A DNA stretch of 64,000 nucleotides from Kyrpidia spormannii (GTDB taxonomy: Bacteria; Bacillota; Bacilli; Kyrpidiales; Kyrpidiaceae). Shown one piece after another: positions 1,476 through 18,092 of the stretch. A program made the translations under genes and the position numbers. Below the pieces are notes generated by a model. That model was given only the letters and a program-made list of their open reading frames with translations, made no database searches and had not been told where the DNA came from. Location of the stretch: assembly GCF_002804065.1 (NCBI RefSeq), contig NZ_CP024955.1, forward strand, positions 1,240,001 to 1,304,000, read 5' to 3'. Within the stretch, counting starts at the first letter, position 1. Every line of letters starts with the position of its first letter.

Positions 1476-2405
1476 TTAGCGAACTTTCAGGATGATTTTA
1501 CCCCGGGAGTGACCGGATTCGCTCAGTTCGTGGGCCTTGGCAACCTCCTCCAATGGCAACACAGCGCCGATGGCGGGTTTGATGTGTCCCTGTTCGATCC
1601 ACTTCCCGATCTCCTCCAGCTTTTTTCCGTCCGGTTGCAGGAAAAAGTAAGCCCGGCGGATGCCTTTTTGTTCGGCCAGGGCCAAGTCCGGCGGCATGAC
1701 GATAGACACCAACATGCCCCCTTTTTTTAGGACGTTCATGCTGAGAAGTTGCACCTCGCCGCCGAGGGTGTCGAACACCACATCCAGATCCCGAAGGGTC
1801 GCGGTAAAATCCTCCTGGGTGTAGTCAATGACCCGGTCTGCGCCCAATTGTTTTGCAAAATCGACGTTCCGTGTGCTGACCGTCGTAATGACCTGGGCAC
1901 CGAGGAGTTTTGCAATCTGAATCGCAAAGCTGCCGACTCCGCCCGCCCCGGCGTGGATGAGCACGGTGTCGCCAGGTTTCACGCCGGCATGATCGATCAG
2001 TGCTTCCCGGGCGGTCAAGGCCGCTAAGGGTACAGATGCTGCTTCTTCGAAAGACAGATTGGCCGGCTTTTTAGCCACCAGTGATTGGTCCACCGCCACG
2101 TACTCCGCGTACGTGCCATCCCGCTCGATGTCCGGCCGGGTGAAGACCTCGTCCCCCACCCGGAAACGGGTGACTTTCGGTCCCGTCTCCACCACGGTTC
2201 CGGCGGCGTCCCACCCGAGGATCAGGGGGAGGCGATGGTTCAGCCGACTTTGTAAATACCCCCGGCGGATTTTCCAGTCCACGGGGTTCACCGAAGCGGC
2301 ATGGACCTCGATGAGCACATCCGTTTCCCTGAGTTCTGGTTTGGGGACATCGGCGATTTTGAGCTGCTCCGGGCCCCCGTAGTTCTCGATCAGCACCGCT
2401 TTCAT
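1476..2405 (-). CDS. NADP-dependent zinc-type/quinone oxidoreductase (MDR superfamily)
   Basis: 309 residues with the MDR layout: N-terminal GroES-like domain (about 1-120) and a Rossmann domain with a G-A-G-G-V-G nucleotide motif near residue 155. No catalytic or structural zinc cysteines are evident, so it belongs to the zinc-free quinone oxidoreductase/enoyl reductase branch. The ATG at 2405 follows a strong AAAGGAGG site. Probably first gene of the leftward operon with the dehydratase and amidohydrolase. Substrate unknown. Confidence 0.85.
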   Translation of the reverse strand: MKAVLIENYGGPEQLKIADVPKPELRETDVLIEVHAASVNPVDWKIRRGYLQSRLNHRLPLILGWDAAGTVVETGPKVTRFRVGDEVFTRPDIERDGTYAEYVAVDQSLVAKKPANLSFEEAASVPLAALTAREALIDHAGVKPGDTVLIHAGAGGVGSFAIQIAKLLGAQVITTVSTRNVDFAKQLGADRVIDYTQEDFTATLRDLDVVFDTLGGEVQLLSMNVLKKGGMLVSIVMPPDLALAEQKGIRRAYFFLQPDGKKLEEIGKWIEQGHIKPAIGAVLPLEEVAKAHELSESGHSRGKIILKVR

Positions 2406-2626
2406 TCCTACCGCCTCCTTTGTGCGGACGTTGTTCTTCGTCTATCCCCAGTATAGCGAAAAAAATGACGACGGGGGAAATCGGTTGCACGGGCTGAAAC
2501 CCGCCAGGAACGTTTTCAATCCCGTTTCCATGGCACATCCTCCATGAGATAAAATAAAAACAGGTACTATTCTATCGAAATTCGCCCAGAGGACTCCCGC
2601 CTCTTTAGGTGCGTGGTGAATGGGCG

Positions 2627-2653
2627 GCCGGGCGAAAGCCCGGCATTTTTTTT
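2627..2653 (+). terminator. rho-independent terminator used as group II intron target
   Basis: A 7-bp perfect GC stem (2627-2633 with 2638-2644) closed by a GAAA tetraloop, then A and eight T (2646-2653). No intact plus-strand gene precedes it, so its original gene is lost or it serves read-through. Intron copy 1 begins at the very next base. Class C group II introns are known to insert just after such terminator hairpins. Confidence 0.9.
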
Positions 2654-4542
2654 GTGCGCCCGGCATGGGCGTTGACTGGGTGGTGAAAGTCCACTGCAGG
2701 CGAGGCAGCACGAGTCTGCTAGCCAAAGGCAAGGGTGTCCATCGTGAGGTGGGATCCGAAGGAAGCTGGAGGCAAACCCACGGCCCGATGAACAAGAACC
2801 TCATACGAGGCTACGCCGTTCGGATGAGCTGGCAAGACACAGCGAAATCCAAAGGCTGCCAAAGGGCGGCGGAGTATATGAGGCGGGCGCGGGGGGAAGG
2901 TCAACGCTCTTACCCGGGGAGGCCTGCCGGATACGCCAGGGGACTGGCAACCCGGATCGAGAGGTTCGGTTGAACCGGCAGGAGTCAGCAGAGGGCATAG
3001 TACCCAGGAGGTCATGAACTCCGGGGGAAGGCCCGAACATCAAGACAGAGGTGAAACCGGTGCGTTCGCGAGAAGGACGAAGACAGCCGAAAACCCTGAA
3101 CAGGGACTACCCACGGGAGGAAGTGGTGAAGCCACGGGGGACCGTGGGAGAGCCGAGCCCTTCTCCGGCACAAAGCGGAGCTTCACCTCGCGGAGAACAA
3201 GGTGACGGCCTGATGGAGAAGGTGGTGGCCAGGCAGAACATGCTGGCCGCCCTGAAGCGGGTGGAGCAGAACAAGGGGGCTCCCGGCGTGGACGGCATTC
3301 CCACGGGAAACCTCCGGGAACAGATCCGAGCCGAGTGGTCGCGCATCCGGGAAGAGCTGCTCACGGGGATCTACCGACCGCAGCCCGTGCGCCGGGTCGA
3401 AATCCCGAAACCCGGGGGAGGCAAGCGGATGCTGGGGATCCCCACCGTGATGGACCGCCTGATCCAGCAGGCACTTCTGCAGGTGCTGACGCCCATCTTT
3501 GACCCGCAATTTTCGGAGGCCAGCTACGGGTTCCGACCCGGAAGAAGGGCACACGAGGCGGTCAAGAAGGCGAGGCAGTATGTGGAAGAAGGATACGAAT
3601 GGGCCGTGGACATGGACCTGGAAAAGTTCTTTGACCGAGTGAATCATGACATCCTTATGGCCCGGGTAGCCCGGAAGGTCACGGACAAACGAGTGCTCAA
3701 GGTCATTCGTCGGTACCTCCAGGCAGGGATCATGGTGAATGGGGTGGTGATGGAAAGAGAGGAAGGGACACCACAGGGCGGGCCGCTGAGTCCCCTGTTG
3801 GCGAATATCCTTCTGGACGACCTGGACAAAGAACTGGAAAAGAGAGGTCACAAGTTCGTCCGGTATGCGGATGATGCTAACATCTACGTTCGAAGCAAAC
3901 GGGCGGGGGAGAGAGTCCTGGCCAGTGTCCGGACATTCCTGCAGGAGCGGCTAAGACTCAAACTCAACGAGCAGAAGAGCACGGTGGACCGACCGTGGAA
4001 ACTGAAGTTTCTGGGATTCAGCATGTACAAACGCAAAGCCGGGGAAATCCGCATTCGCTTGGCCAGACAGTCGATCGAGCGGGTCAAGGCCAAGATCCGA
4101 ACCCTCACGGCGAGGAACACACCGATCGCCATGGAGGAACGCATCCGGCGGCTGAACACGTATCTGGGCGGATGGATGGGATACTTTGCCCTGGCGGAGA
4201 CGCCGAGCACCTTCGAAGAAATCGAAGGATGGATCCGGCGGAGGCTGCGGATGTGCCTCTGGAAACAGTGGAAACGGGTACGGACGCGATACCGTGAACT
4301 GCGCGCGCTAGGGCTGCCGGAGTGGGTCGTTCATCAATTTGCCAATGCCCGCAAAGGACCGTGGCGGATGGCCCATGGGCCGATGAATCGAGCCTTGGGG
4401 AACGCCTATTGGCAGGCCCAAGGACTCATGAGCTTAACCGAACGTTACCGAAGGCTTCGTCAATCTTGGTGAACCGCTGGATGCGGACCCGCATGTCCGG
4501 TGGTGTGAGAGGACGGGGGCTAGCCGCCCCCTCCTACTCGAT
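2654..4542 (+). mobile_element. group II intron, copy 1 (class C-like)
   Basis: Starts with GTGCG, matching the GUGYG 5' consensus, directly after a terminator, and ends ...CTACTCGAT at 4542, matching the 3' AY rule. Length 1889 bp. The first ~400 bp hold the structured domains I-III and the ORF lies in domain IV. Bases around 4474-4506 fold as a domain V-like hairpin: a 9-bp stem with one G-U pair, a 2-nt bulge and a short upper stem. The GGGGGC/GCCCCC stem at about 4515-4531 with a following TCCTACTC fits domain VI and a branch-point A. The terminator target and a maturase without an endonuclease domain point to class C; this is an inference. Confidence 0.9.
3051..4472 (+). CDS. ltrA: group II intron reverse transcriptase/maturase, copy 1
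   Basis: 473 residues from the first in-frame GTG; a GTG at 3060 behind AGAGGTG is another possible start. RT core roughly 60-330 with Y-A-D-D at 272-275 and the intact RT-4 motif Q-G-G-P-L-S-P-L-L at 242-250. Maturase X domain follows at about 350-470, ending in R-K-G-P-W-R type sequence. There is no C-terminal HNH endonuclease, so insertion should use single-stranded or replication-fork DNA. It needs the ribozyme RNA for splicing and retrohoming. Of the three copies this is the only one with the canonical RT-4 motif. Confidence 0.93.
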
Positions 4543-4544
4543 GT

Positions 4545-6433
4545 GTGCGCCCGGCATGGGCGTTGACTGGGTGGTGAAAGTCCACTGCAGGCGAGGCAGC
4601 ACGAGTCTGCTAGCCAAAGGCAAGGGTGTCCGCTGCGAGGCGGAATCCGAAGGAAGCCGGAGGCAAACCCACGGCCCGATGAACAAGAACCTCATACGAG
4701 GCTGCACCGTTGGGATGAGCTGGCGCAACACAGCGAAATCCAAGGCTGCCAAGGGGCGGGGGAGTATATGAGGCGGGCGCGGGGGGAAGGTCAGCGTTCT
4801 TACCCGGGGAGGCCTGCCGGATACACCAGGAAAACTGGCAACCCGAACCGAGAGGTTCGGCTGAACCGGCAGGAGTCAGCAGAGGGCATAGTACCCAGGA
4901 GGTCATGAATTCAGGGGGAAGGCCCGAACATCAAGTCAGAGGTGAGACCGATGCGTTCGCGAGAAGGACGAAGACAGCCGAAAACCCTGAACAGGAACTG
5001 CCCACGGGAGGAAGTGGTGAAGCCACGGGGGATCGTGGGAGAGCCGAGCCCTTCTCCGGCACAAAGCGGAACCTCACCTCGCGGGGATCAAGGTGACAGC
5101 CTGATGGAGAAGGTGGTGGCCAGGGATAACATGCTGGCCGCCCTGAAGCGGGTGGAGCAGAACAAGGGTGCCCCCGGCGTGGACGGCATTCCCACGGAAA
5201 ACCTCCGGGAACAGATCCGAGCCGAGTGGCCGCGCATCCGGGAAGAACTGCTCGCGGGGACCTACCGACCGCAGCCCGTGCGCCGGGTCGAAATCCCGAA
5301 ACCCGGGGGAGGCAAGCGGATGCTGGGGATCCCCACCGTGATGGACCGCCTGATCCAACAGGCCCTCCTGCAAGTGCTGACGCCGATCTTTGACCCGGAA
5401 TTTTCGGAGGCCAGCTACGGGTTCCGCCCCGGAAGAAGGGCCCACGACGCGGTCAAGAAGGCGAGGCAGTATGTGGAAGAAGGATACGAATGGGGCGTGG
5501 ACATGGACCTGGAAAAGTTCTTTGACCGGGTGAATCATGACATCCTTATGGCCCGGGTAGCCCGGAAGGTCACGGACAAACGAGTGCTCAAGGTTATTCG
5601 CCGGTACCTCCAGGCAGGGATCATGGTGAACGGGGTGGTCATGGAAAGGGAGGAAGGGACGCCACAGGGCGGGCCGCCCCGTCCACTGTTGGCGAATATC
5701 CTTCTGGATGACCTGGATAAAGAACTGGAAAAGAGGGGCCACAAGTTCGTCCGGTATGCAGATGATGCCAACATCTACGTTCGAAGCAGACGGGCGGGGG
5801 AGAGAGTCCTGGCCAGTATCCGGAAATTCCTGCAGGAGAGGTTAAAACTCAAGCTCAACGAGCAGAAGAGCACGGTGGACCGACCGTGGAAACTCAAGTT
5901 TCTGGGGTTCAGCATGTATAAACCCAAAGCCGGGGAAATCCGAATCCGCCTAGCGAGGCAGTCGATCGACCGGGTCAAGACCAAGATCCGAGCCCTCACG
6001 GCGAGGAACACACCGATCGCCATGGAGGAACGAATCCGACGGCTGAACACGTATCTGGGTGGATGGATCGGGTATTTTGCCCTGGCGGAAACGCCGAGCA
6101 TCTTCGAAGAAATCGATGGATGGATACGGCGGAGGCTGCGGATGTGTCTCTGGAAACAGTGGAAACGGGTGCGGACGCGATACCGTGAACTGCGTGCACT
6201 GGGGTTGCCGGAGTGGGTGGTGCACCCATTTGCCAATGCCCGCAAAGGGCCGTGGCGAATGGCCCATGGGCCGATGAACAGAGCCCTGGGCAACGCCTAC
6301 TGGCAGGCTCAAGGTCTGATGAGTTTAACCGAACGTTACCGAAGGCTTCGTCAAGCTTGGTGAACCGCCGGATGCGGATCCGCATGTCCGGTGGTGTGAG
6401 AGGACGGGGGCTAGCCGCCCCCTCCTACTCGAT
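4545..6433 (+). mobile_element. group II intron, copy 2
   Basis: Begins GTGCG at 4545, two bases (GT) after copy 1 ends, and ends ...CTACTCGAT at 6433; 1889 bp. The ORF lies at the same offset (397 bp) and the tail has the same length (70 bp) as in the other copies, so the three are colinear. The bases just upstream are the domain VI hairpin of copy 1, not a terminator. Point differences from copy 1 are scattered along the element, so it is not a recent exact duplicate of copy 1. Confidence 0.9.
4942..6363 (+). CDS. ltrA: group II intron reverse transcriptase/maturase, copy 2
   Basis: 473 residues, colinear with copy 1, YADD present at 272-275. The highly conserved RT-4 motif reads Q-G-G-P-P-R-P-L-L instead of Q-G-G-P-L-S-P-L-L, a double change shared with copy 3 but not copy 1. 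Further differences from copy 3 include Gly185 for Ala (after E-W), Pro for Arg in Y-K-R-K-A-G and Asp for Glu in the X domain. The open frame is intact, but the RT-4 change could lower polymerase activity; this is not shown by sequence alone. Confidence 0.9.
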   Translation: MRPMRSREGRRQPKTLNRNCPREEVVKPRGIVGEPSPSPAQSGTSPRGDQGDSLMEKVVARDNMLAALKRVEQNKGAPGVDGIPTENLREQIRAEWPRIREELLAGTYRPQPVRRVEIPKPGGGKRMLGIPTVMDRLIQQALLQVLTPIFDPEFSEASYGFRPGRRAHDAVKKARQYVEEGYEWGVDMDLEKFFDRVNHDILMARVARKVTDKRVLKVIRRYLQAGIMVNGVVMEREEGTPQGGPPRPLLANILLDDLDKELEKRGHKFVRYADDANIYVRSRRAGERVLASIRKFLQERLKLKLNEQKSTVDRPWKLKFLGFSMYKPKAGEIRIRLARQSIDRVKTKIRALTARNTPIAMEERIRRLNTYLGGWIGYFALAETPSIFEEIDGWIRRRLRMCLWKQWKRVRTRYRELRALGLPEWVVHPFANARKGPWRMAHGPMNRALGNAYWQAQGLMSLTERYRRLRQAW

Positions 6434-8322
6434 GTGTGCCCGGCATGGGCGTTGACTTGGTGGTGAAAGTCCACTGCAGGCGAGGCAGCACGAGTCTGCT
6501 AGCCAAAGGCAAGGGTGTCCGCTGCGAGGCGGAATCCGAAGGAAGCCGGAGGCAAACCCACGGTCCGATGAACAAGAACCTCATACGAGGCTGCGCCGTT
6601 CGGATGAGCTGGCGCAACACAGCGAAATCCAAGGCTGCCAAGGAGCGGTGGAGTATATGAGGCGGGCGCGGGGGGAAGGTCAGCGTTCTTACCCGGGGAG
6701 GCCTGCCGGACACGCCAGAGAAACTGGCAACCCGAACCGAGAGGTTCGGCTGAACCGGCAGGAGTCAGCAGAGGGCATAGTACTCCGGGGATCATGAACC
6801 TGAGAGGAAGGCCCGAACATCAAGTCAGAGGTGAGACCGGTGCGTTCGCGAGAAGGACGAAGACAGCCGAAAACCCTGAACAGGAACTGCCCACGGGAGG
6901 AAGTGGTGAAGCCACGGGGGATCGTGGGAGAGCCGAGCCCTTCTCCGGCACAAAGCGGAACCTCACCTCGCGGGGATCAAGGTGACAGCCTGATGGAGAA
7001 GGTGGTGGCCAGGGATAACATGCTGGCCGCCCTGAAGCGGGTGGAGCAGAACAAGGGTGCCCCCGGCGTGGACGGCATTCCCACGGAAAACCTCCGGGAA
7101 CAGATCCGAGCCGAGTGGCCGCGCATCCGGGAAGAACTGCTCGCGGGGACCTACCGACCGCAGCCCGTGCGCCGGGTCGAAATCCCGAAACCCGGGGGAG
7201 GCAAGCGGATGCTGGGGATCCCCACCGTGATGGACCGCCTGATCCAACAGGCCCTCCTGCAAGTGCTGACGCCGATCTTTGATCCGCAATTTTCGGAGGC
7301 CAGCTATGGGTTCCGTCCCGGGAGAAAGGCCCACGACGCGGTCAAGAAGGCGAGGCAGTATGTGGAAGAAGGATACGAATGGGCCGTGGACATGGACCTG
7401 GAAAAGTTCTTTGACCGGGTGAATCATGACATCCTGATGGCCCGGGTCGCTCGGAAGATCACGGACAAACGAGTGCTCAAGGTTATTCGCCGGTACCTCC
7501 AGGCAGGGATCATGGTGAACGGGGTGGTCATGGAAAGGGAGGAAGGGACGCCACAGGGCGGGCCGCCCCGTCCACTGTTGGCGAATATCCTTCTGGATGA
7601 CCTGGATAAAGAACTGGAAAAGAGGGGCCACAGGTTCGTCCGGTATGCGGATGATGCCAACATCTACGTTCGAAGCAGACGGGCGGGGGAGAGAGTCCTG
7701 GCCAGTATCCGGAAATTCCTGCAGGAGCGGTTAAAACTCAAGCTTAACGAGCAGAAGAGCACGGTGGACCGACCGTGGAAACTCAAGTTTCTGGGGTTCA
7801 GCATGTACAAACGCAAAGCCGGGGAAATCCGGATTCGCCTGGCCAGGCAGTCGATCGACCGGGTCAAGACCAAGATCCGAGCCCTCACGGCGAGGAACAC
7901 ACCGATCGCCATGGAGGAACGAATCCGACGGCTGAACACGTATCTGGGCGGCTGGATCGGATACTTTGCTCTGGCCGAAACGCCGAGCACATTCGAAGAA
8001 ATCGAAGGATGGATCCGGCGGAGGCTGCGGATGTGTCTCTGGAAACAGTGGAAACGGGTGCGGACGCGATACCGTGAACTGCGCGCACTGGGGTTGCCGG
8101 AGTGGGTGGTACACCCATTCGCCAATGCCCGCAAAGGGCCGTGGCGAATGGCCCATGGGCCGATGAATCGAGCCCTGGACAACACCTACTGGCAGGCTCA
8201 AGGTCTGATGAGTTTAACCGAACGTTACCGAAGGCTCAGTCAAGCTTGGTGAACCGCCGGATGCGGACCCGCATGTCCGGTGGTGTGAGAGGACGGGGGC
8301 TAGCCGCCCCCTCCTACTCGAT
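6434..8322 (+). mobile_element. group II intron, copy 3
   Basis: Starts GTGTG at 6434 with no gap after copy 2 and ends ...CTACTCGAT at 8322; again 1889 bp with identical internal offsets. Compared with the others the fourth base of the 5' end is T instead of C (GTGTG against GTGCG); both fit GUGYG. Its 3' flank is the left end of an IS200/IS605 element. It shares most derived differences with copy 2, so these two are sisters. Confidence 0.9.
6831..8252 (+). CDS. ltrA: group II intron reverse transcriptase/maturase, copy 3
   Basis: 473 residues, RT plus X domain, YADD at 272-275, no endonuclease domain. Carries the same P-R replacement in RT-4 (residues 246-247) as copy 2. Small private changes include R-K-A-H for R-R-A-H near 166, K-I-T-D for K-V-T-D near 209 and S-Q-A-W at the C-terminus. 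The frame is intact over its full length. Confidence 0.9.
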   Translation: MRPVRSREGRRQPKTLNRNCPREEVVKPRGIVGEPSPSPAQSGTSPRGDQGDSLMEKVVARDNMLAALKRVEQNKGAPGVDGIPTENLREQIRAEWPRIREELLAGTYRPQPVRRVEIPKPGGGKRMLGIPTVMDRLIQQALLQVLTPIFDPQFSEASYGFRPGRKAHDAVKKARQYVEEGYEWAVDMDLEKFFDRVNHDILMARVARKITDKRVLKVIRRYLQAGIMVNGVVMEREEGTPQGGPPRPLLANILLDDLDKELEKRGHRFVRYADDANIYVRSRRAGERVLASIRKFLQERLKLKLNEQKSTVDRPWKLKFLGFSMYKRKAGEIRIRLARQSIDRVKTKIRALTARNTPIAMEERIRRLNTYLGGWIGYFALAETPSTFEEIEGWIRRRLRMCLWKQWKRVRTRYRELRALGLPEWVVHPFANARKGPWRMAHGPMNRALDNTYWQAQGLMSLTERYRRLSQAW

Positions 8323-8388
8323 TGCAGTTTACCAAAAGTTGCTGTAACATATAATCAGTTACTAATTAGCGAAGGTCTTGGTGTTGCT

Positions 8389-8823
8389 ATGAAATTGGAC
8401 AGCAATTATCATTCAGTGTTTAAGCTCACTTATCACCTCGTCTTGGTGGTCAAGTACCGCCGAAAAGTTATCAACGATCAAGTGGCCGCACGCATTAGGG
8501 AAATCGGAGAATATATAGCACCAAGGTACAACATTACGTTCTTGGAATTTAACCATGACCGCGATCACGTGCACATACTCTTCAGTGCCCACCCCAACAG
8601 CACTCTGTCGAAATATATCAACGCTTTTAAAAGCGCCTCGTCACGGTTGGTGAAAAAGGAGTTCCCGGAAATCAGGAAACACCTCTGGAAAGAATATTTC
8701 TGGTCCCGCAGTTTTTGCCTTTTGACTACCGGGGGAGCTCCGATGGAAGTGATCAAAAAATACATCGAGTCCCAGGGTGAGAAAAATGATCATCGTACAC
8801 CGGTTTCACATCGAGCCAACTAA
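8389..8823 (+). CDS. tnpA: IS200/IS605 Y1 transposase TnpA
   Basis: 144 residues, the usual size for this HUH single-strand transposase. The metal-binding H-V-H is at residues 60-62 and the candidate nucleophile Tyr125 lies in I-K-K-Y-I-E-S-Q-G. The ATG at 8389 lies ~65 bp inside the element. The last ~12 residues (after E-K at 131-132) run past the usual end of the family because the frame stays open over the tnpB start. The gene overlaps tnpB by 38 bp, suggesting coupled translation. Confidence 0.92.
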   Translation: MKLDSNYHSVFKLTYHLVLVVKYRRKVINDQVAARIREIGEYIAPRYNITFLEFNHDRDHVHILFSAHPNSTLSKYINAFKSASSRLVKKEFPEIRKHLWKEYFWSRSFCLLTTGGAPMEVIKKYIESQGEKNDHRTPVSHRAN

Positions 8824-9856
8824 AGAGCAAGAGCAAAAGCTGTTTCAGACCCTGGAGCTTTGCCGCCAGCTATACAACGCAGCCCTGGAGCAAAGAGAAA
8901 TTTGTTATCGGCAAAGAGGCAAGTCACCTTCTTGCACCGCACAAAAAAATGAACTACCGGCATTTAAGAAAGAATTTCCGGAATACAAACAGGTCAATGC
9001 TCAAGTCCTGCAGGATTGCCTGCAGAGGTTAGACCATGCGTTCCAGCGGTTTTTTGCTGGCCTGGCCGGGTATCCGCACTACAAAGATCAGAACCATTAC
9101 CGTTCTTTCACCTACCCGCAGGCGGACAAGCAGGACCATTTCAAAAAAATCGGCCATATTTATTTGCCTAAGATTGGGTACGTCAAAATGAAAGCTCACT
9201 TTGAATTTAACCCGGCCAAGGTCAGCCGAATCAATGTCAAGTACCACGGCGGCAAATGGTACGTCAATCTGACCTCGGAAATCCAAGAGTCCGAAGGAGT
9301 AGACATTGTTAACAAGGTGGGTATTGATGTTGGCCTTTTAACCTTCGCCGCACTCTCAGACGGCACGAAAATCGACAACCCGAAATACTTTCGTAAATCC
9401 GAAAAGAAATTGGCCAGGTTGCAAAGACGGCTTTCCCGCAAGAAAAAAGGTTCAAACAACCGAGGGAAGGCTAAAGCGAAAGTAACCAGGCTGCATGATA
9501 AGATTGCCAATCAGCGGAAAGACTTCTTGCACAAGATTTCCCACGGCATAGTCCAAAAATATGACTGGATCGCCGTCGAGGATTTGTCGGTTAAGAACAT
9601 GATGAAGAATCACCATTTCAGCAAGAGCATCGCCGACGCTGGCTGGAGCAAGTTCATCAGCTACATCGAATATAAAGCCAAAAAGTTCGGCAAGGTTCTA
9701 GTGAAAGTTCCTCCAGCCGGCACGTCCCAAACCTGTGTATGCGGGCATCCAGTTCCCAAAGACCTAAGCGTCCGGATACACCAATGCCCGCATTGCGGGC
9801 TGACCGCCGACCGGGACGTGGTCTCGGCGATGGTCATCCTGCAAAGGGCGAATTAG
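8786..9856 (+). CDS. tnpB: RNA-guided endonuclease TnpB
   Basis: About 356 residues from ATG 8786; a GTG at 8777 is an alternative start. RuvC residues are visible, numbered from the GTG start: Asp184 in G-I-D-V-G, Glu269 in V-E-D-L-S and Asp347 in A-D-R-D-V. The zinc-finger part has C-V-C (320, 322) and C-P-H-C (337, 340); the first pair is C-x-C and not the usual C-x2-C. Members of the family cut DNA guided by an omega-RNA made from the element's right end, and so help retain the element. The frame ends soon after the RD motif, without a long C-terminal tail. Confidence 0.92.
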   Translation: MIIVHRFHIEPTKEQEQKLFQTLELCRQLYNAALEQREICYRQRGKSPSCTAQKNELPAFKKEFPEYKQVNAQVLQDCLQRLDHAFQRFFAGLAGYPHYKDQNHYRSFTYPQADKQDHFKKIGHIYLPKIGYVKMKAHFEFNPAKVSRINVKYHGGKWYVNLTSEIQESEGVDIVNKVGIDVGLLTFAALSDGTKIDNPKYFRKSEKKLARLQRRLSRKKKGSNNRGKAKAKVTRLHDKIANQRKDFLHKISHGIVQKYDWIAVEDLSVKNMMKNHHFSKSIADAGWSKFISYIEYKAKKFGKVLVKVPPAGTSQTCVCGHPVPKDLSVRIHQCPHCGLTADRDVVSAMVILQRAN

Positions 9857-11094: not shown

Positions 11095-12075
11095 TCATCG
11101 CTCCAGAACCACTTTTCCCCAAGTCCGTCGGGAGGCCAGGCGGGCGAGGGCTGCGGGCAGCTGCTCAAAGGGGAATCGGTGGTGGACAAGGGGCCGGATG
11201 GAACCCTGCTGGTAGAGGGCGATTAGATCCCGGTGCGCCTCCCGGACCGCCTGGGGGAAGAGGCGCTGAAAGAGTCCCCAGTGCACCCCCCAGATGGCGT
11301 AGTTTTTCACCAGGGCGTGGTTGGTGGGAGCCTGGGCGATGCGCCCGCCGGCGAATCCCACCACCAGGATCCGCCCTTCAAAGGCAATGCAGCGGCGGGA
11401 CTGGTCGAACACATCCCCGCCCACCGGGTCGAAAATAACGTTTGCCCCCTTGCCTTGGGTGGCCATTTTGACGGCCTCGACAAAATCATGTTCTCTGTAG
11501 TCGATCGCCAAGTCGGCGCCGAGTTCTCGGCAAATGTTCACTTTCTCCCGGCCGCCCGCTGTGGCGATCACTCCGGCGCCTGCCGCCTTGCCGAGCTGGA
11601 TCGCCGCCGACCCGACTCCGCCGGCTCCGGCGTGTACCAGGAGCACCTCGCCCCGCTGAAGCCGGGCCAGCCGATGCAAGGCGTAATGAGCGGTGTGAAA
11701 GCTGATGAAAAAGGCGGCGGCTTCCGCCGGCGGCATCGATTCCGGCACGGGGTATACGCGGTCAGCCGGTACTTTGATCTGTTCGGCGTAGCCGCCCTCT
11801 GGCAAAGCGGGGAGGGCAATCACCCGGTTCCCGACGGGCAGGTCCACCCCCTCTCCCGAGGCTCGGATGCGACCGGTCACCTCGGCTCCGGGGGTAAAGG
11901 GAAGCGGGGGCTTTTCTTGGTAGGTACCGGCACACAGGAGGAGGTCAAGAAAATTAACTCCCGCGGCCTCGACGTCGATCAACACTTCTCCCGCTTGCGG
12001 GACCGGCGCCGGCCTCTCTTCCAGGCGGAGTACTTCTTCCGGATTTCCAAGCTGATGCACCACCCAGGCTCGCAC
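11095..12075 (-). CDS. NADPH:quinone oxidoreductase family protein
   Basis: 326 residues if translation starts at the GTG at 12075, which is preceded by GGAAGGTG at good spacing. From there the protein begins with an R-A-W-V-V-H strand typical of the family and has a G-A-G-G-V-G motif near residue 150. The frame stays open far upstream through an acyl-CoA dehydrogenase remnant (to 12429), giving a 444-codon ORF. The internal start and ribosome site indicate that the reductase is a separate product. Convergent with the preceding MDR gene across a 34-bp gap. Confidence 0.82.
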   Translation of the reverse strand: MRAWVVHQLGNPEEVLRLEERPAPVPQAGEVLIDVEAAGVNFLDLLLCAGTYQEKPPLPFTPGAEVTGRIRASGEGVDLPVGNRVIALPALPEGGYAEQIKVPADRVYPVPESMPPAEAAAFFISFHTAHYALHRLARLQRGEVLLVHAGAGGVGSAAIQLGKAAGAGVIATAGGREKVNICRELGADLAIDYREHDFVEAVKMATQGKGANVIFDPVGGDVFDQSRRCIAFEGRILVVGFAGGRIAQAPTNHALVKNYAIWGVHWGLFQRLFPQAVREAHRDLIALYQQGSIRPLVHHRFPFEQLPAALARLASRRTWGKVVLER

Positions 12076-12429
12076 AGGCGAACACCTTCCTTCCGTGACA
12101 TTGCCTAGCAAATCATCCACTTTGACGTGTCCCTTCAGGAGATTTCGGGAGATGATGAGGCGCTGGATCTCATCCGTGCCGTCGTAGATGCGCCACAACC
12201 GGGCCTCCCGGTACCATCGTTCGATGGGCAACTCCTTCGTGTACCCCATTCCCCCATGAATCTGCAACACCCGATCCACCACGCGGTTGCCCATGTTGGA
12301 ACCGTAGAGCTTCCCCATGGAGGCGTACCGGGACATCCCTGGCTTCCCTTCCCGTTCGTTTCGCAAGACCTGCTGTTCAAGGGGGATCAGTTCCCGTTCG
12401 ACAAACCGGCGTACCGTCTGTTGGACCAT
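12076..12429 (-). pseudogene. acyl-CoA dehydrogenase remnant with internal deletion
   Basis: About 118 codons. The first ~31 resemble the N-terminal helix region of acyl-CoA dehydrogenases. At the M-S-R-Y-A-S segment it jumps to the C-terminal domain, with Q-I-H-G-G-M-G-Y and R-D-G-T-type (Y-D-G-T-D-E-I-Q) motifs of the FAD-binding end. The middle ~250 residues, including most of the active site, are missing. No stop separates it from the downstream reductase frame. It cannot be a working dehydrogenase. A TetR-like palindrome lies 60 bp upstream. Confidence 0.8.
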
Positions 12430-13012: not shown

Positions 13013-14524
13013 GTGATTCAACGCCCTTCACTGGAACAATTGGACCGCATCGCGCGTGCGTATGGGCTGGGCTTGGGACCGGAGGATTTAATAGAGTTTC
13101 GCAATCTGGTGTCGGCGGCGCTGGCTTCCTATGACCGGGTTCACGACATGGTGGAACCGAAGCCGCCAGTCACCTATTCGCGGTCGGTGGGCTATCGCCC
13201 AGGCGAGGAGGAAAATCCGCTTGGAGCCTGGTACTGGAAAACGAAAGTTCCGGGAGCGTCGGAAGGGAAGCTCTCCGGTAAGCGGATTGTTCTGAAAGAT
13301 AACGTGAGTTTGGCCGGAGTGCCGATGATGAACGGGACTTCGGTGTTGGAGGGCTATGTGCCCGATGTCGATGCGACGATCGTGACCCGGATTCTCGACG
13401 CCGGGGGTGAGATCGTCGGGAAAGCGGTGTGTGAGCATCTGTGCTTTTCCGGCAGCAGTTTTACGTCTGACACTGGCCCGGTGAGAAATCCTCACGACCC
13501 GTCGCGGTCAGCGGGGGGGTCGTCCAGCGGAAGTGCCGTACTTGTGGCCACCGGGGACGTGGACATGGCCATTGGTGGCGACCAGGGGGGATCGATTCGG
13601 ATCCCCAGTTCCTGGTGCGGGGTGTATGGGCTAAAGCCCTCCTATGGTCTCGTGCCCTACACCGGGGTGTTTCCGATCGAGCAAACCATCGACCACGTGG
13701 GTCCCATTGCCGGCACCGTGGCGGACGTGGCCCTCCTGCTCGAGGTCATCGCCGGACCTGATGGCCTCGACCCACGCCAGAGGGATCTGGAAGCAAAACC
13801 GTACAGCCAACTGCTCGGCGGAGACCTGAGCGGGATGCGGATCGGCGTGGTGCGGGAAGGCTTTGGATGGGAAGCGTTGTCTGAGCCCGACGTGGATGAG
13901 GCGGTCCGGGAGGCGGCGCACGCCTTTGTCCAGTACGGGGCCTCGGTGGAGGAAATCTCGATTCCAATGCATCGGGACGGGCTTCACATCTGGAACGTGA
14001 TCGGAACCGAGGGCACCTTGGACATGATGATCCGCGGGCACAGTCAAGGAACGAACTGGAAGGGCTTTTATCAGACCAGCCTTCTCGATGTGTATGCCCG
14101 GGGTCTGAAGACCCGGGCGGTGGATCTCACCGATACTGTGAAGATGGTGATCCTGGCAGCCCAGTACATGCAGGAGATGTATCACGGAAGATATTATGCC
14201 AAAGCCCAGAATCTCGGGCGGCAGTTGAGGGCGGAATATGACGCCGTCTTGAAAACCTACGATGTACTGATTATGCCCACGACGCCGATGAAAGCGACGC
14301 CCATCCCCGGGCCGGAGAGCAGCCGGGAGGAGCGGGTGGCCCGGGCGCTGGAGATGATCGTCAACACCGCTCCCTTCGATGTGACCGGACACCCGGCGAT
14401 GAACGTGCCCTGCGGGCGGTCGGGCGGACTTCCCGTGGGGATGATGCTTATCGGGCGCCACGGGGAGGATGAGGTGGTCCTTCGGGCCGCCTATGCCTTT
14501 GAACAGGACCGCGGTCAGATTTAG
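13013..14524 (+). CDS. amidase (amidase signature family)
   Basis: 503 residues, start GTG 13013 behind AGGGGGATG. Amidase-signature core: catalytic Lys in V-L-K-D-N-V (about residue 92), the G-G-S-S-S-G-S-A glycine/serine loop (about 167-174) and the nucleophile serine in G-G-S-I-R-I. The N-terminal ~70-residue helical extension and the overall length match nitrile-pathway amidases such as Rhodococcus/Pseudomonas enantioselective amidases. Expected reaction: R-CO-NH2 to acid plus ammonia. The truncated nitrilase upstream and ammonium genes downstream suit a nitrogen-scavenging role. Confidence 0.87.
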   Translation: MIQRPSLEQLDRIARAYGLGLGPEDLIEFRNLVSAALASYDRVHDMVEPKPPVTYSRSVGYRPGEEENPLGAWYWKTKVPGASEGKLSGKRIVLKDNVSLAGVPMMNGTSVLEGYVPDVDATIVTRILDAGGEIVGKAVCEHLCFSGSSFTSDTGPVRNPHDPSRSAGGSSSGSAVLVATGDVDMAIGGDQGGSIRIPSSWCGVYGLKPSYGLVPYTGVFPIEQTIDHVGPIAGTVADVALLLEVIAGPDGLDPRQRDLEAKPYSQLLGGDLSGMRIGVVREGFGWEALSEPDVDEAVREAAHAFVQYGASVEEISIPMHRDGLHIWNVIGTEGTLDMMIRGHSQGTNWKGFYQTSLLDVYARGLKTRAVDLTDTVKMVILAAQYMQEMYHGRYYAKAQNLGRQLRAEYDAVLKTYDVLIMPTTPMKATPIPGPESSREERVARALEMIVNTAPFDVTGHPAMNVPCGRSGGLPVGMMLIGRHGEDEVVLRAAYAFEQDRGQI

Positions 14525-14590
14525 GATAGAAACCTTTCTGAATCAGGGATATTTGAGATATAAAAAATGACGTAGAATGAGAAAAATATC

Positions 14591-14619
14591 TTGCATAATG
14601 GAGATAGTCCGGTTAAAAT
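14591..14619 (+). promoter_or_regulatory. promoter of the riboswitch-glnK-amtB unit
   Basis: TTGCAT (14591-14596), a 17-bp spacer and TAAAAT (14614-14619). A start site about 7 bases later (~14626) falls exactly where the riboswitch aptamer begins. Confidence 0.7.
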
Positions 14620-14626
14620 GGCGATA

Positions 14627-14756
14627 GAGAACTCCTAGGGTTCCGCGTTTGGCATGAAAGATGACAAACGGACCGGTCCGAGAGGAGTTCGCGCCGAAGC
14701 CGGCGTCACACGGAGGGATAAAAGCCCGGGAGGTTTTTATCCCTCCGTATTTTTTT
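14627..14756 (+). promoter_or_regulatory. guanidine-I (ykkC-type) riboswitch with terminator
   Basis: The conserved blocks of the guanidine-I aptamer are present in order: CTAGGGTTCCG (14634-14644), ACCGGTCCGAGAG (14672-14684), and ACACGG-GGGATAAAAGCCCGGGAG near 14708-14732 (here with A after ACACGG). The AGGGTTCCG and GGTCCGAGAG forms fit the guanidine class better than the ppGpp or PRPP variants of the ykkC family. The last block also forms one arm of a 13-bp terminator stem (14711-14723 with 14735-14747) followed by seven T. Ligand binding should hold the arm in the aptamer and permit read-through, turning on glnK-amtB when guanidine is present. Confidence 0.88.
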
Positions 14757-14812
14757 CGAAAGGAGAGGGAAGCGGTGGAAAGCCGTGAATTCATGAATGG
14801 AGCACGAGCAAG

Positions 14813-14841
14813 GGGAGCGGGATTTGTCGAGTCCTGCTCCT
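14813..14841 (+). other. stem-loop in the glnK leader
   Basis: A 10-bp stem with two G-U pairs (14813-14822 with 14832-14841) and a 9-nt loop, between the riboswitch terminator and glnK. The following TTTCGTT is only a weak U tract. It may be a second attenuator or a processing site. Confidence 0.4.
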
Positions 14842-14889
14842 TTCGTTATCATGGGGGCGATCAAGGCGATTTTCAGGCGGGAAGGAAGA

Positions 14890-15252
14890 ATGGGATTGAA
14901 AAAGATTGAGGCGATTATTCGTCCGGAAAAGTTGCAGGCGGTGATTGCAAAGCTGCATGCGGCTGGAATCTTTGGATTCACGGTCAGCCAGGTTCAAGGC
15001 CGGGGTCAACAGCGCAGTTCGGCAGGGGTGTATCGGGGGCACGTGTATCAAATCAGCCTGCACCCGAAGGTGAAGGTGGAGATGGTCGTCTCCGATGCCT
15101 ATGCGCAGAGGGCGGTGGAGTCGATTGTCCAGGCGGCGCAGACCGGGGAGGCGGGAGACGGGAAAATTTTTGTCCTGCCGGTGTATGAAGCGTACAACAT
15201 TCGCACCGGTGCGCCCGACGAAACGATCGATGATATGCGGTCCACAAAATAA
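14890..15252 (+). CDS. glnK: PII nitrogen regulatory protein
   Basis: 120 residues from ATG 14890 behind GGAAGGA; the frame is open further up but the family starts at M-G-L-K-K-I-E-A-I-I. The T-loop region (about 37-55) reads G-R-G-Q-Q-R-S-S-A-G-V-Y-R-G, with a tyrosine in the usual uridylylation area. The nucleotide-binding G-x-G-x-G-K-I-F appears as G-E-A-G-D-G-K-I-F (about 84-92). It binds ATP/ADP and 2-oxoglutarate and blocks the AmtB channel when nitrogen is plentiful. It is followed by amtB after 99 bp and both lie behind the guanidine riboswitch. Confidence 0.93.
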   Translation: MGLKKIEAIIRPEKLQAVIAKLHAAGIFGFTVSQVQGRGQQRSSAGVYRGHVYQISLHPKVKVEMVVSDAYAQRAVESIVQAAQTGEAGDGKIFVLPVYEAYNIRTGAPDETIDDMRSTK

Positions 15253-15351
15253 TCGATAACATGTAATGAAAGATGACAAAACTGCTTGCGAATACCCCTT
15301 TCGGTCGCGTATACTGGCATCGTATTTTCTCTGACGTTGGAGGGGAGAGAT

Positions 15352-16668
15352 GTGACGGTACCGGAAGGGTTGAACACTGTGTGGGTCGTGCTGGCGGCGG
15401 CGATGATTGTGTTCATGGAGGGCGGGTTCAGCCTTTTGGAGGCGGGTTTGGTGCGGACCAAAAACGCCGTAAACGTGACGATGAAAATTTTTGTGGATCT
15501 CACCTTTGGGGCTTTGGCCTATTATGCGGTGGGACTCGGACTTATGTTTGGTGCGGATCACTTTGGTTGGTTCGGGTTGGCTTTACCCTCTGGGGTGATG
15601 GGGCCCGAGGGAGTTCCCACTGCCGCTTATGCATTATTTCAGATCGCTTTCGCCATGGCGGTGGCGTCGATCGTGTCCGGGGCCGTCGCCGAGCGGATGA
15701 AATTTTCGGCGTATATCGTGGTGACCATGTTGGTCTGCGGTCTAATCTATCCGTTGTCCGGCCACTGGATCTGGTCTTCGGGGGGCTGGTTATCTCGACT
15801 CGGGATGGAGGATTTTGCCGGATCGGCGGCGATTCACGCCATGGGGGGATTTTCCGCGCTGGCCCTGGCCGCGGTGCTCGGGCCCAGGCGCCAGCGATTT
15901 GGTTCGGATGGAGAGGTCAACGTCTTTGCTCCAAGTAACATTCCCCTGGCTTCGGCGGGGGCGTTTATTCTGTGGTTTGGGTGGTTCGGGTTCAACGCGG
16001 GCAGTACATTGAACGCCCTGGACGTGCGGCTTCCCATGATTGCTCTTCACACCTTTCTAGCGGCGTCGGCCGGCGGGGCGGCGGCGATCCTCGTGAGCAT
16101 GGCGCGCTTTAAGGTTTCCGATCCGAGCATGGCGATCAATGGTTCCCTGGCGGGACTAGTGGCGATCACGGCGGGTTGTGCCTTTGTGGGGACGGGTGCG
16201 TCGGTGATGATTGGCGCGGTGGCCGGGGCCTTGGTGGTTTGGGCGACGGGATGGGTGGATCGGATGAAGGTGGATGATCCGGTGGGGGCGGTGGCGGTTC
16301 ACGGATTCGGTGGCCTCTGGGGTACGGTGGCGGTGGGGTTGTTCGATGTACGCCAAGGGATGTTGACCACCGGCGATGCCCATCTGCTGCTCGTGCAAGG
16401 GTTAGGCGCTGCGGTGGCGGCGGTGTGGGGGTTTGCGGCCATGTTCGGAATTGGCACTCTTCTCGATAAAATTATGGGGCTTCGTGTGGCGCCGGACTTG
16501 GAGGAGCAGGGGTTGGACCTGGCCTTCCATGGCATTCCGGCGTACAATGAGCTGGAGCGGTTTACAAATTGGCCGGAGGGGCCGGGACATGGCGCGGCCG
16601 AAGATCCTGAGCCGGTGAAACCGGTGCTTGGCATGGGGGTGGAGCCGGCTCCGTCCGATCGGGCATGA
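15352..16668 (+). CDS. amtB: ammonium transporter
   Basis: 438 residues from GTG 15352, which has GGAGGGGAGA just upstream; an earlier in-frame start at 15286 would add 22 non-hydrophobic residues. Eleven membrane segments are expected. The twin-histidine pore is visible as A-I-H-A-M-G-G (about 160) and V-H-G-F-G-G-L-W-G (about 310), and the conserved Asp in D-F-A-G-S. The C-terminal cytoplasmic tail (E-E-Q-G-L-D and onward) is the PII contact region. Conducts NH4+/NH3 into the cell. Confidence 0.94.
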   Translation: MTVPEGLNTVWVVLAAAMIVFMEGGFSLLEAGLVRTKNAVNVTMKIFVDLTFGALAYYAVGLGLMFGADHFGWFGLALPSGVMGPEGVPTAAYALFQIAFAMAVASIVSGAVAERMKFSAYIVVTMLVCGLIYPLSGHWIWSSGGWLSRLGMEDFAGSAAIHAMGGFSALALAAVLGPRRQRFGSDGEVNVFAPSNIPLASAGAFILWFGWFGFNAGSTLNALDVRLPMIALHTFLAASAGGAAAILVSMARFKVSDPSMAINGSLAGLVAITAGCAFVGTGASVMIGAVAGALVVWATGWVDRMKVDDPVGAVAVHGFGGLWGTVAVGLFDVRQGMLTTGDAHLLLVQGLGAAVAAVWGFAAMFGIGTLLDKIMGLRVAPDLEEQGLDLAFHGIPAYNELERFTNWPEGPGHGAAEDPEPVKPVLGMGVEPAPSDRA

Positions 16669-16682
16669 GATTTGTACCCGTG

Positions 16683-18092
16683 TCAGCCATGCTGTCCCGC
16701 GACAAACCGGCCGAAGGGTTTGTCCGGGAAGCGCCCCGAGCCGAATTCCCTCATGAGCTTGTTCAGGGACGGGTCCCAGTAAACCGGTTTTCCGCGCAAG
16801 AGGGTGGCAAGAATCTTTCCTCGAAATGTCCGACCGATGAAGGGGCTGTGCGGGTGACGATAATAGAGATCCTCCCGGCGGAGGGCCCAGGGGGTGCCGA
16901 GTTCCACGAGAACCAGGTCGGCGTCCGAGCCGGGCGCGATGGTGCCTTTTCGGGGATAAAGGCCGAACCGCTTTGCTGGGTTGGTGGCGGTGAGGGCAGT
17001 CAGGGTCTCGAGGGGGACTCCGCGCCTGTGGTAGCCTTCCTCGAGAAGTACGTTGAGGGCGGTTTGGGCGCCGGAAATGCCGCCCCAGACGCGAAAAAGG
17101 TTGCCTTCGGGATCCTCTTTCATAGAAGGTGGGCAAGGGGAGTGATCCGATCCCACGGTGTCCACCAGCCCCGCCCGAACGGCCTGCCAGAGAGCTTCCA
17201 CTTCGTCCCGTCCTCGCAAGGGGGGAGCGCATTTGGCCACGCCGCCGAGTTCTTCCAGGTCGGCGACAGTCAGGGATAGGTAGTGGGGGCAGGTCTCCAC
17301 GCTCACGTCCACTCCGGCCTCTCGCGCCGCCCGGATCCGGCGGACCACATCCGCGCTGCTCGCGTGGACGACGTGCAGGCGGCACCCGGTCAGACGGGCG
17401 ATGGCCAGGGCGCGTTCGACAGCTTCCAGTTCGGAGACCACGGGGCGGGAGGCTTCGTAATCTCGGGCTGAAACCCGCCCCTGGGACAGAAAAGATTCGG
17501 TCAGGCGTCGGGTGATCCAGGAACTTTCCGCATGGACGGCGACCACGGCGCCCAGGCGGGCTGCAATGTCCATCCCCGCCCACAGGGAGTCGTTGTCCAC
17601 AGCGGGAAAATCGTCGGTTCCAGCGTCGGTCATGAAGGCTTTGAAGCCAATCGCCCCGCACTGGCTGAGTTCGGTTAACTCCTCTGTGTTTCCGGGAATG
17701 AGCCCTCCCCACAGTCCGTAATCGATGAAAGATTTCGCCTCGGCGACCTTTCGTTTTTCCTCAAAGTGACTCCTGTCTGTCACGGGCGGGGTGCTGTTCA
17801 GGGGCATGTCAAAAAACGTTGTCACCCCACCGGCTGCCAAGCTCATGGTTCCCGTCGTGAACCCTTCCCAGTCCGCCCTTCCAGGTTCGTTCAAGTGGAC
17901 ATGGGCGTCGATGAGTCCAGGGAAAATGTACAAGCCTGTGGCGTCGATTTCCCGGTCCAATGTGGACGCCTGAGTTAATTGACTCTCCATAGCGACCACA
18001 GTACCGTGTCGAATCCGGAGATCCGTTCGCCGAGTGCCCTCCGGTGAAACCACAGTGCCCCCGCGAATCACCAAATCACCTTCATCTCTCAT
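16683..18092 (-). CDS. allB: allantoinase
   Basis: 469 residues of the cyclic amidohydrolase family. Metal ligands: H-V-H-L-N-E-P-G (His64, His66), the bridging lysine in G-F-K-A-F-M (about 149), V-H-A-E (about 187), H-V-V-H-A-S (about 243) and G-S-D-H-S-P (about 318). The N-E-P-G and D-F-like patterns favour allantoinase over dihydropyrimidinase. Hydrolyses allantoin to allantoate. The ATG overlaps the stop of an M20-peptidase stub, and the allantoate hydrolase gene lies further upstream on the same strand, so an allantoin-degradation operon is likely. Confidence 0.88.
   Translation of the reverse strand: MRDEGDLVIRGGTVVSPEGTRRTDLRIRHGTVVAMESQLTQASTLDREIDATGLYIFPGLIDAHVHLNEPGRADWEGFTTGTMSLAAGGVTTFFDMPLNSTPPVTDRSHFEEKRKVAEAKSFIDYGLWGGLIPGNTEELTELSQCGAIGFKAFMTDAGTDDFPAVDNDSLWAGMDIAARLGAVVAVHAESSWITRRLTESFLSQGRVSARDYEASRPVVSELEAVERALAIARLTGCRLHVVHASSADVVRRIRAAREAGVDVSVETCPHYLSLTVADLEELGGVAKCAPPLRGRDEVEALWQAVRAGLVDTVGSDHSPCPPSMKEDPEGNLFRVWGGISGAQTALNVLLEEGYHRRGVPLETLTALTATNPAKRFGLYPRKGTIAPGSDADLVLVELGTPWALRREDLYYRHPHSPFIGRTFRGKILATLLRGKPVYWDPSLNKLMREFGSGRFPDKPFGRFVAGQHG

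Follow-up and report, generated by a model that had tools for sequence, protein, structure and literature searches.

A guanidine-I riboswitch ahead of glnK-amtB in Kyrpidia spormannii EA-1, very probably orphaned by deletion of a guanidinase cassette

Introduction

Why does a hot-spring bacterium carry a guanidine riboswitch ahead of its ammonium-uptake genes? The strain in question was described as Kyrpidia sp. EA-1 (PMC5773743) and later named K. spormannii EA-1 (PMC7248562). The window analysed here is a stretch of 64,000 nt of its chromosome (C1:1240001-1304000; G000 denotes the EA-1 genome). An initial annotation of this DNA had read the locus as a circuit linking guanidine sensing to ammonium uptake. 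Our searches, confined for the most part to literature outside subscription journals, found no work treating guanidine and Kyrpidia together and none treating 'guanidine riboswitch' and 'ammonium transporter' together.

Results

A guanidine-I leader with a predicted ON architecture

The leader contains three elements:

14591..14619, + strand: putative leader promoter, TTGCAT (14591-14596), 17 nt, TAAAAT (14614-14619)
14624..14734, + strand: guanidine-I riboswitch aptamer, RF00442, 83.8 bits over the entire model
14710..14756, + strand: predicted intrinsic terminator, a 17-pair stem (14710-14748) followed by a T run, predicted -28.5 kcal/mol

When a 1-kb region was searched with cmscan against Rfam, RF00442 reached 83.8 bits (gathering score 63, E=2.8e-15). 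The match spans model positions 1-107 with all guanidine-I blocks present, as the initial annotation had claimed, and no other riboswitch family came near its cut-off in the kilobase around the leader. Two other Kyrpidia genomes were compared, the K. tusciae-like G001 and the more distantly related G002; the EA-1 aptamer is identical to the G001 copy at 111/111 positions and to the G002 copy at 103/111, and both of those copies precede gdmH. The identical aptamer ahead of gdmH in G001 supports the view that the EA-1 leader would bind guanidine. The proposal that the terminator shares an aptamer arm was also borne out, as the 5' arm of the terminator stem is the 3' arm of the aptamer, ACGGAGGGATAAAAGCCCGGGAGGT. 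The leader thus appears to have a transcriptional ON architecture in which the terminator competes with the aptamer.

The promoter had been described as a clean sigma-A promoter, which is generous: its -35 hexamer matches the consensus at 3/6 positions and its -10 hexamer at 5/6, and it is missing from the output of a strict promoter scan. The promoter is nonetheless probably real because the hexamer arrangement is kept in G001 (TTGCAG-17-TAAAAT) and G002 (TTGCGT-17-TACAAT), giving the shared pattern TTGC..-17-TA.AAT.

A second ykkC-type RNA in EA-1, scoring 40.4 bits and probably of the ppGpp subtype, lies upstream of gltB (C1:1459648-1459742; L033 4649-4743). Similarly weak ykkC-type matches also occur in G001 and G002, and there is a weak SMR-like match in EA-1 at G000 3182556.

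glnK and amtB follow the leader directly

The first complete gene 3' of the leader is glnK and the next is amtB, which agrees with the order and the coordinates (14591-15252) first assigned to leader and glnK. The following features lie in and around the two genes:

14775..14909, + strand: leader ORF of 44 codons, running from the gdmH GTG and ending within the glnK start; made by the deletion described below
14811..14843, + strand: predicted hairpin upstream of glnK (RNA fold of 14803-14845, -21.2 kcal/mol), also in G001
14824..14852, + strand: promoter-like TTGTCG-17-TATCAT, candidate glnK promoter, 9/12 to consensus, also in G001
14890..15252, + strand: glnK, PII signal protein, ATG start at 14890 and stop at 15252, PF00543, 96 bits
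15262..15278, + strand: putative GlnR/TnrA box TGTAATGAAAGATGACA, exact TGTNAN7TNACA, in the 99-bp glnK-amtB gap
15286..15315, + strand: putative amtB promoter TTGCGA-18-TATACT, kept in G001 and present in G002 with TTGCAG
15352..16668, + strand: amtB, ammonium transporter, GTG start, PF00909 368 bits and TIGR00836 378 bits, over cut-off

A search of the EA-1 genome returned a single PII match, making glnK its sole PII gene. The overlap of the leader ORF with the glnK start may permit translational coupling. The hairpin before glnK is possibly a weak terminator of the ancestral operon and, if it folds as predicted, could limit riboswitch read-through. The promoter scan gave two matches there against 0.6 expected per region, which is only suggestive of a promoter belonging to glnK itself; the fit to consensus is weak. 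The nearby amidase and allantoin genes do not belong to the unit: the amidase lies upstream of the switch, and allantoinase and allantoate hydrolase are encoded on the other strand, placing them all beyond its control.

amtB appears to have its own nitrogen-controlled promoter

In Paenibacillus amtB-glnK is controlled by GlnR and in B. subtilis by TnrA (PMC9948412). A single match, the box in the glnK-amtB gap, was obtained across the whole window (0.18 expected), and orthologous exact boxes with different inner bases are found in G001 and G002. EA-1 encodes GlnR immediately upstream of glnA, with 55% identity to the B. subtilis protein. Genome-wide, the GlnR/TnrA consensus occurs at 15 sites against 16 for a control pattern and is neither rarer nor commoner, so the case for the box rests on position and conservation. 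With a box at its promoter and GlnR in the genome, amtB looks like a gene with a nitrogen-controlled promoter of its own, and nitrogen status would probably be the main control. The locus resembles the Bacillus and Paenibacillus systems in having an exact box upstream of the amtB promoter and GlnR beside glnA, but the gene order is glnK-amtB and the box sits between the genes rather than before the pair.

A deletion separates EA-1 from its relatives

The initial annotation had suggested looking for the same riboswitch-glnK order in related genomes. We did not find it in either relative. In both G001 and G002 the guanidine-I leader is followed by gdmH, a metallophosphoesterase gene, an APC permease gene and a nucleotidyltransferase-like gene, and then by glnK-amtB, with cassette and glnK-amtB on one strand. 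In EA-1 about 5.27 kb is missing at precisely this place, between the leader and glnK: by blastn, window positions 14518-14777 and 14781-17894 align to G001 stretches 5275 bp apart. The junction consists of:

14762..14777, + strand: scar of the lost gdmH, ribosome site GGAGAGGGAAGCG plus GTG start (14775-14777), identical to the gdmH start in G001
14778..14780, no strand: deletion junction, 3 unaligned bases, where about 5275 bp of G001 (L034 reverse complement 2116-7390) are absent

After the scar come three bases and then sequence equal to the end of the transferase gene in G001. Identity in the locus is about 96% between EA-1 and G001; over glnK-amtB, G002 matches the window at about 78%. 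Searches of the EA-1 genome found no gdmH ortholog (the best match, at 36% identity, is to other ureohydrolases), no match to the APC permease and no urea/guanidine carboxylase over cut-off. This rules out that gdmH or the permease has simply moved elsewhere. An assembly error is ruled out as the source of the deletion by the single circular chromosome, assembled from PacBio and Illumina data at QV60 (PMC5773743). Since G002, the outgroup, carries the cassette, loss in EA-1 is the simplest history.

A guanidine transport or degradation gene, the usual downstream partner, thus follows the leader in G001, G002 and G003 but not in EA-1. In Sulfoacidibacillus thermotolerans the same four genes, without glnK, follow 60 bp behind a guanidine-I RNA, an arrangement that ties the riboswitch to the cassette rather than to glnK. 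Neither the aptamer nor the terminator hairpin differs between EA-1 and G001, while the surrounding DNA differs by about 4%, which points to purifying selection for most of the time since the two diverged. Selection could have persisted after the deletion, in which case 'relic' would be too strong a word, or, equally, the deletion could be recent.

The guanidinase cassette

The G001 gdmH product is an arginase-family protein of 382 aa that scores 530 bits to PDB 9fek and 518 bits to 7esr/7oi1, with the next protein at 168 bits. The first of these structures is the Nitrospira inopinata guanidinase (PMC11410670) and 7esr/7oi1 are Synechocystis GdmH. The residues Thr105, His222, Trp313 and Glu344 are listed for guanidinase, with the threonine and tryptophan setting guanidine specificity (PMC11410670); in our reading of the alignment they correspond to T111, H226, W317 and E347 of the G001 protein. 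The APC permease of the cassette is likely a guanidine importer. Riboswitch-controlled guanidinase operons are known from Synechocystis, with gdmH, and from N. inopinata, where guanidine-I, an APC permease and a guanidinase are combined (PMC11410670, PMC12186494). The ancestral Kyrpidia locus, as preserved in G001 and G002, shares guanidine-I, gdmH and the APC permease with these operons; it differs in gene order and adds the phosphoesterase and transferase-like genes. EA-1 differs further in that both enzyme and permease are deleted.

The cassette varies among the genomes that carry it. The phosphoesterase and permease are intact in G002. In G001 a TnpB-type element (L034 5267-7234, - strand) has disrupted the phosphoesterase as well as the beginning of the APC permease, which is without its first ~115 residues, so the G001 cassette also appears to be decaying. 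The gap between cassette and glnK in G002 is about 450 bp and includes a fragment resembling the start of a nickel transporter just before glnK (L036 ~3400-3620, - strand). In G003, gdmH lies behind guanidine-I and is flanked by genes for an ABC transporter and a nickel transporter (NicO) (L085 16077-18844, - strand). The same gdmH-phosphoesterase-permease-transferase cassette occurs in Thermogemmatispora (L099, L100), where no guanidine-I RNA was detected with it; its gdmH shares 86-87% protein identity, suggesting transfer between phyla.

Guanidine breakdown releases ammonium (PMC12186494), and urease is present in all four genomes. Urea is reported not to support growth of EA-1 but to support that of K. 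tusciae and K. spormannii FAVT5 (PMC7248562), which fits the loss of a pathway with urea as product; EA-1 still encodes a urease cluster. The ANI of FAVT5 and the second isolate from Pantelleria to EA-1 is about 97.5% (PMC7248562). The cluster comprises the gamma subunit, a fused beta-alpha subunit, a CobW/HypB/UreG-type protein and UreD (L182 3461-8290; C1 ~455460-460290), in contrast to the published statement that the EA-1 genome has no urease gene (PMC7248562).

The riboswitch-glnK joint among other loci

We surveyed 57 first genes behind over-cut-off guanidine-I matches in the class, including the three of G001-G003, with ORFs picked by script. The small multidrug resistance family accounts for 39, amino-acid-type permeases for 7, NMT1-type binding proteins for 3 and the arginase family for 2. 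Neither PII nor Amt was the first gene behind any of these 57 other leaders. Among 80 gdmH loci of named genomes, none has glnK nearby; at one of them an Amt of distant similarity (32% identity) is encoded over 6 kb upstream. Across the leaders and gdmH loci surveyed, glnK-amtB is rejected as a recurrent guanidine-I target. The riboswitch-glnK joint is unique to EA-1 among everything examined, which fits a chance event in one lineage better than a recurring circuit.

Other elements of the window

Three nearly identical group II introns lie head to tail at 2620-8323, each with a 473-aa ORF; the domain matches lie at 2738, 4629 and 6518, a spacing of about 1.89 kb, and such a tandem triple looks unusual. 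An IS200/IS605-type TnpB RNA-guided nuclease gene occupies 8777-9856. In the ORF at 11095-12429 (- strand) a zinc alcohol dehydrogenase is joined to the C-terminal portion of an acyl-CoA dehydrogenase, apparently through gene fusion or as the scar of a deletion.

Discussion

The locus is very probably an intact guanidine-I ON riboswitch orphaned by deletion of its cassette. The putative promoters would be active, and the switch would bind guanidine and permit read-through, with a weak present role or none. At the level of sequence, the riboswitch class, the deletion, the loss of gdmH and the permease, and the GlnR box are all established. We propose that the ancestral switch controlled gdmH (encoding a Ni guanidinase), the metallophosphoesterase, the APC permease and the nucleotidyltransferase-like gene, with glnK-amtB next downstream. 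In the EA-1 lineage a loss of about 5.3 kb, starting immediately behind the gdmH start codon and reaching the end of the transferase gene, would then have brought the switch up against glnK. The switch would thus stand before glnK-amtB because the guanidinase and its neighbours were deleted. With guanidine bound, the terminator would not form and RNA polymerase would read into glnK, perhaps with translation of a 44-codon leader peptide that is coupled to the start of glnK. amtB would retain a promoter of its own, the one with the GlnR/TnrA box, and glnK may retain one too. The EA-1 switch resembles other guanidine-I riboswitches (ykkC subtype 1, RF00442) in its full aptamer consensus and terminator-based ON architecture and differs from them in having glnK-amtB in place of a guanidine exporter, carboxylase, guanidinase or importer gene.

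Compatible with this deletion is the tentative possibility of an ancestral Kyrpidia operon in which the switch co-induced guanidinase, permease and ammonium recapture genes, EA-1 keeping the last two. The ammonium freed by guanidine breakdown and the urease of all four genomes would suit such an operon, as would the co-oriented glnK-amtB behind the cassette in G001 and in G002, two genomes that diverge strongly over this region. However, the cassettes of Sulfoacidibacillus and Thermogemmatispora have no glnK there, amtB is preceded by its own promoter and GlnR box, and in G002 some 450 bp with the nickel-transporter-like fragment separate cassette and glnK.

We consider it unlikely that the switch was co-opted after the deletion as a useful control of glnK, or of glnK-amtB, with guanidine or an accompanying compound inducing PII and ammonium transport. 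The aptamer and terminator hairpin are unaltered, the leader continues straight into the only PII gene, and the leader ORF overlap permits coupling; since glnK is that sole PII gene, even modest read-through could matter. Yet no recognised guanidine-degrading route remains in EA-1, amtB has its GlnR-box promoter, the hairpin before glnK may stop read-through, and the arrangement occurs in one genome only. It is improbable that, once the deletion had put the switch on the PII gene, selection kept the link so that guanidine sets PII level, nitrogen signalling and ammonium transport.

That EA-1 is ancestral and that G001 and G002 gained the cassette by insertion between riboswitch and glnK is very hard to credit even in a region abounding in mobile elements, given the gdmH ribosome site and start codon that persist in EA-1 as a scar, the riboswitch and same cassette without glnK in Sulfoacidibacillus, and the cassette in G002, outgroup to EA-1 and G001. 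Similarly far-fetched is a ppGpp- or PRPP-type ykkC variant: such subtypes share most conserved bases and may exceed the RF00442 cut-off, and a 70.2-bit match in G073 lies ahead of an ORF for a glutamine amidotransferase, apparently a purine-synthesis gene, but the window RNA has every guanidine-I block at 83.8 bits, its aptamer is identical to the one directly before the G001 guanidinase, and the gltB-linked ppGpp-like copy of EA-1 reaches only 40.4 bits. On this score comparison we rejected the ppGpp/PRPP subclass for the window RNA, and the subclass check by covariance model came out for guanidine-I (Rfam release 15 gave no separate ppGpp/PRPP model); no branched-chain amino acid, glutamate synthase or purine genes, the associations of those subclasses, accompany the window copy.

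The guanidine-to-ammonium circuit first proposed is thus most likely a by-product of the deletion and not a design: the adjacency is a scar particular to EA-1, and a promoter with a conserved GlnR/TnrA box stands before amtB itself. That a riboswitch lies next to a gene in a single genome does not necessarily reflect regulatory design. The locus is an example of a riboswitch that has survived its operon, and the comparison puts on record a guanidinase cassette in Kyrpidia. Should the orphan switch still influence glnK, EA-1 would represent a natural regulatory rewiring by deletion that can be compared with K. tusciae.
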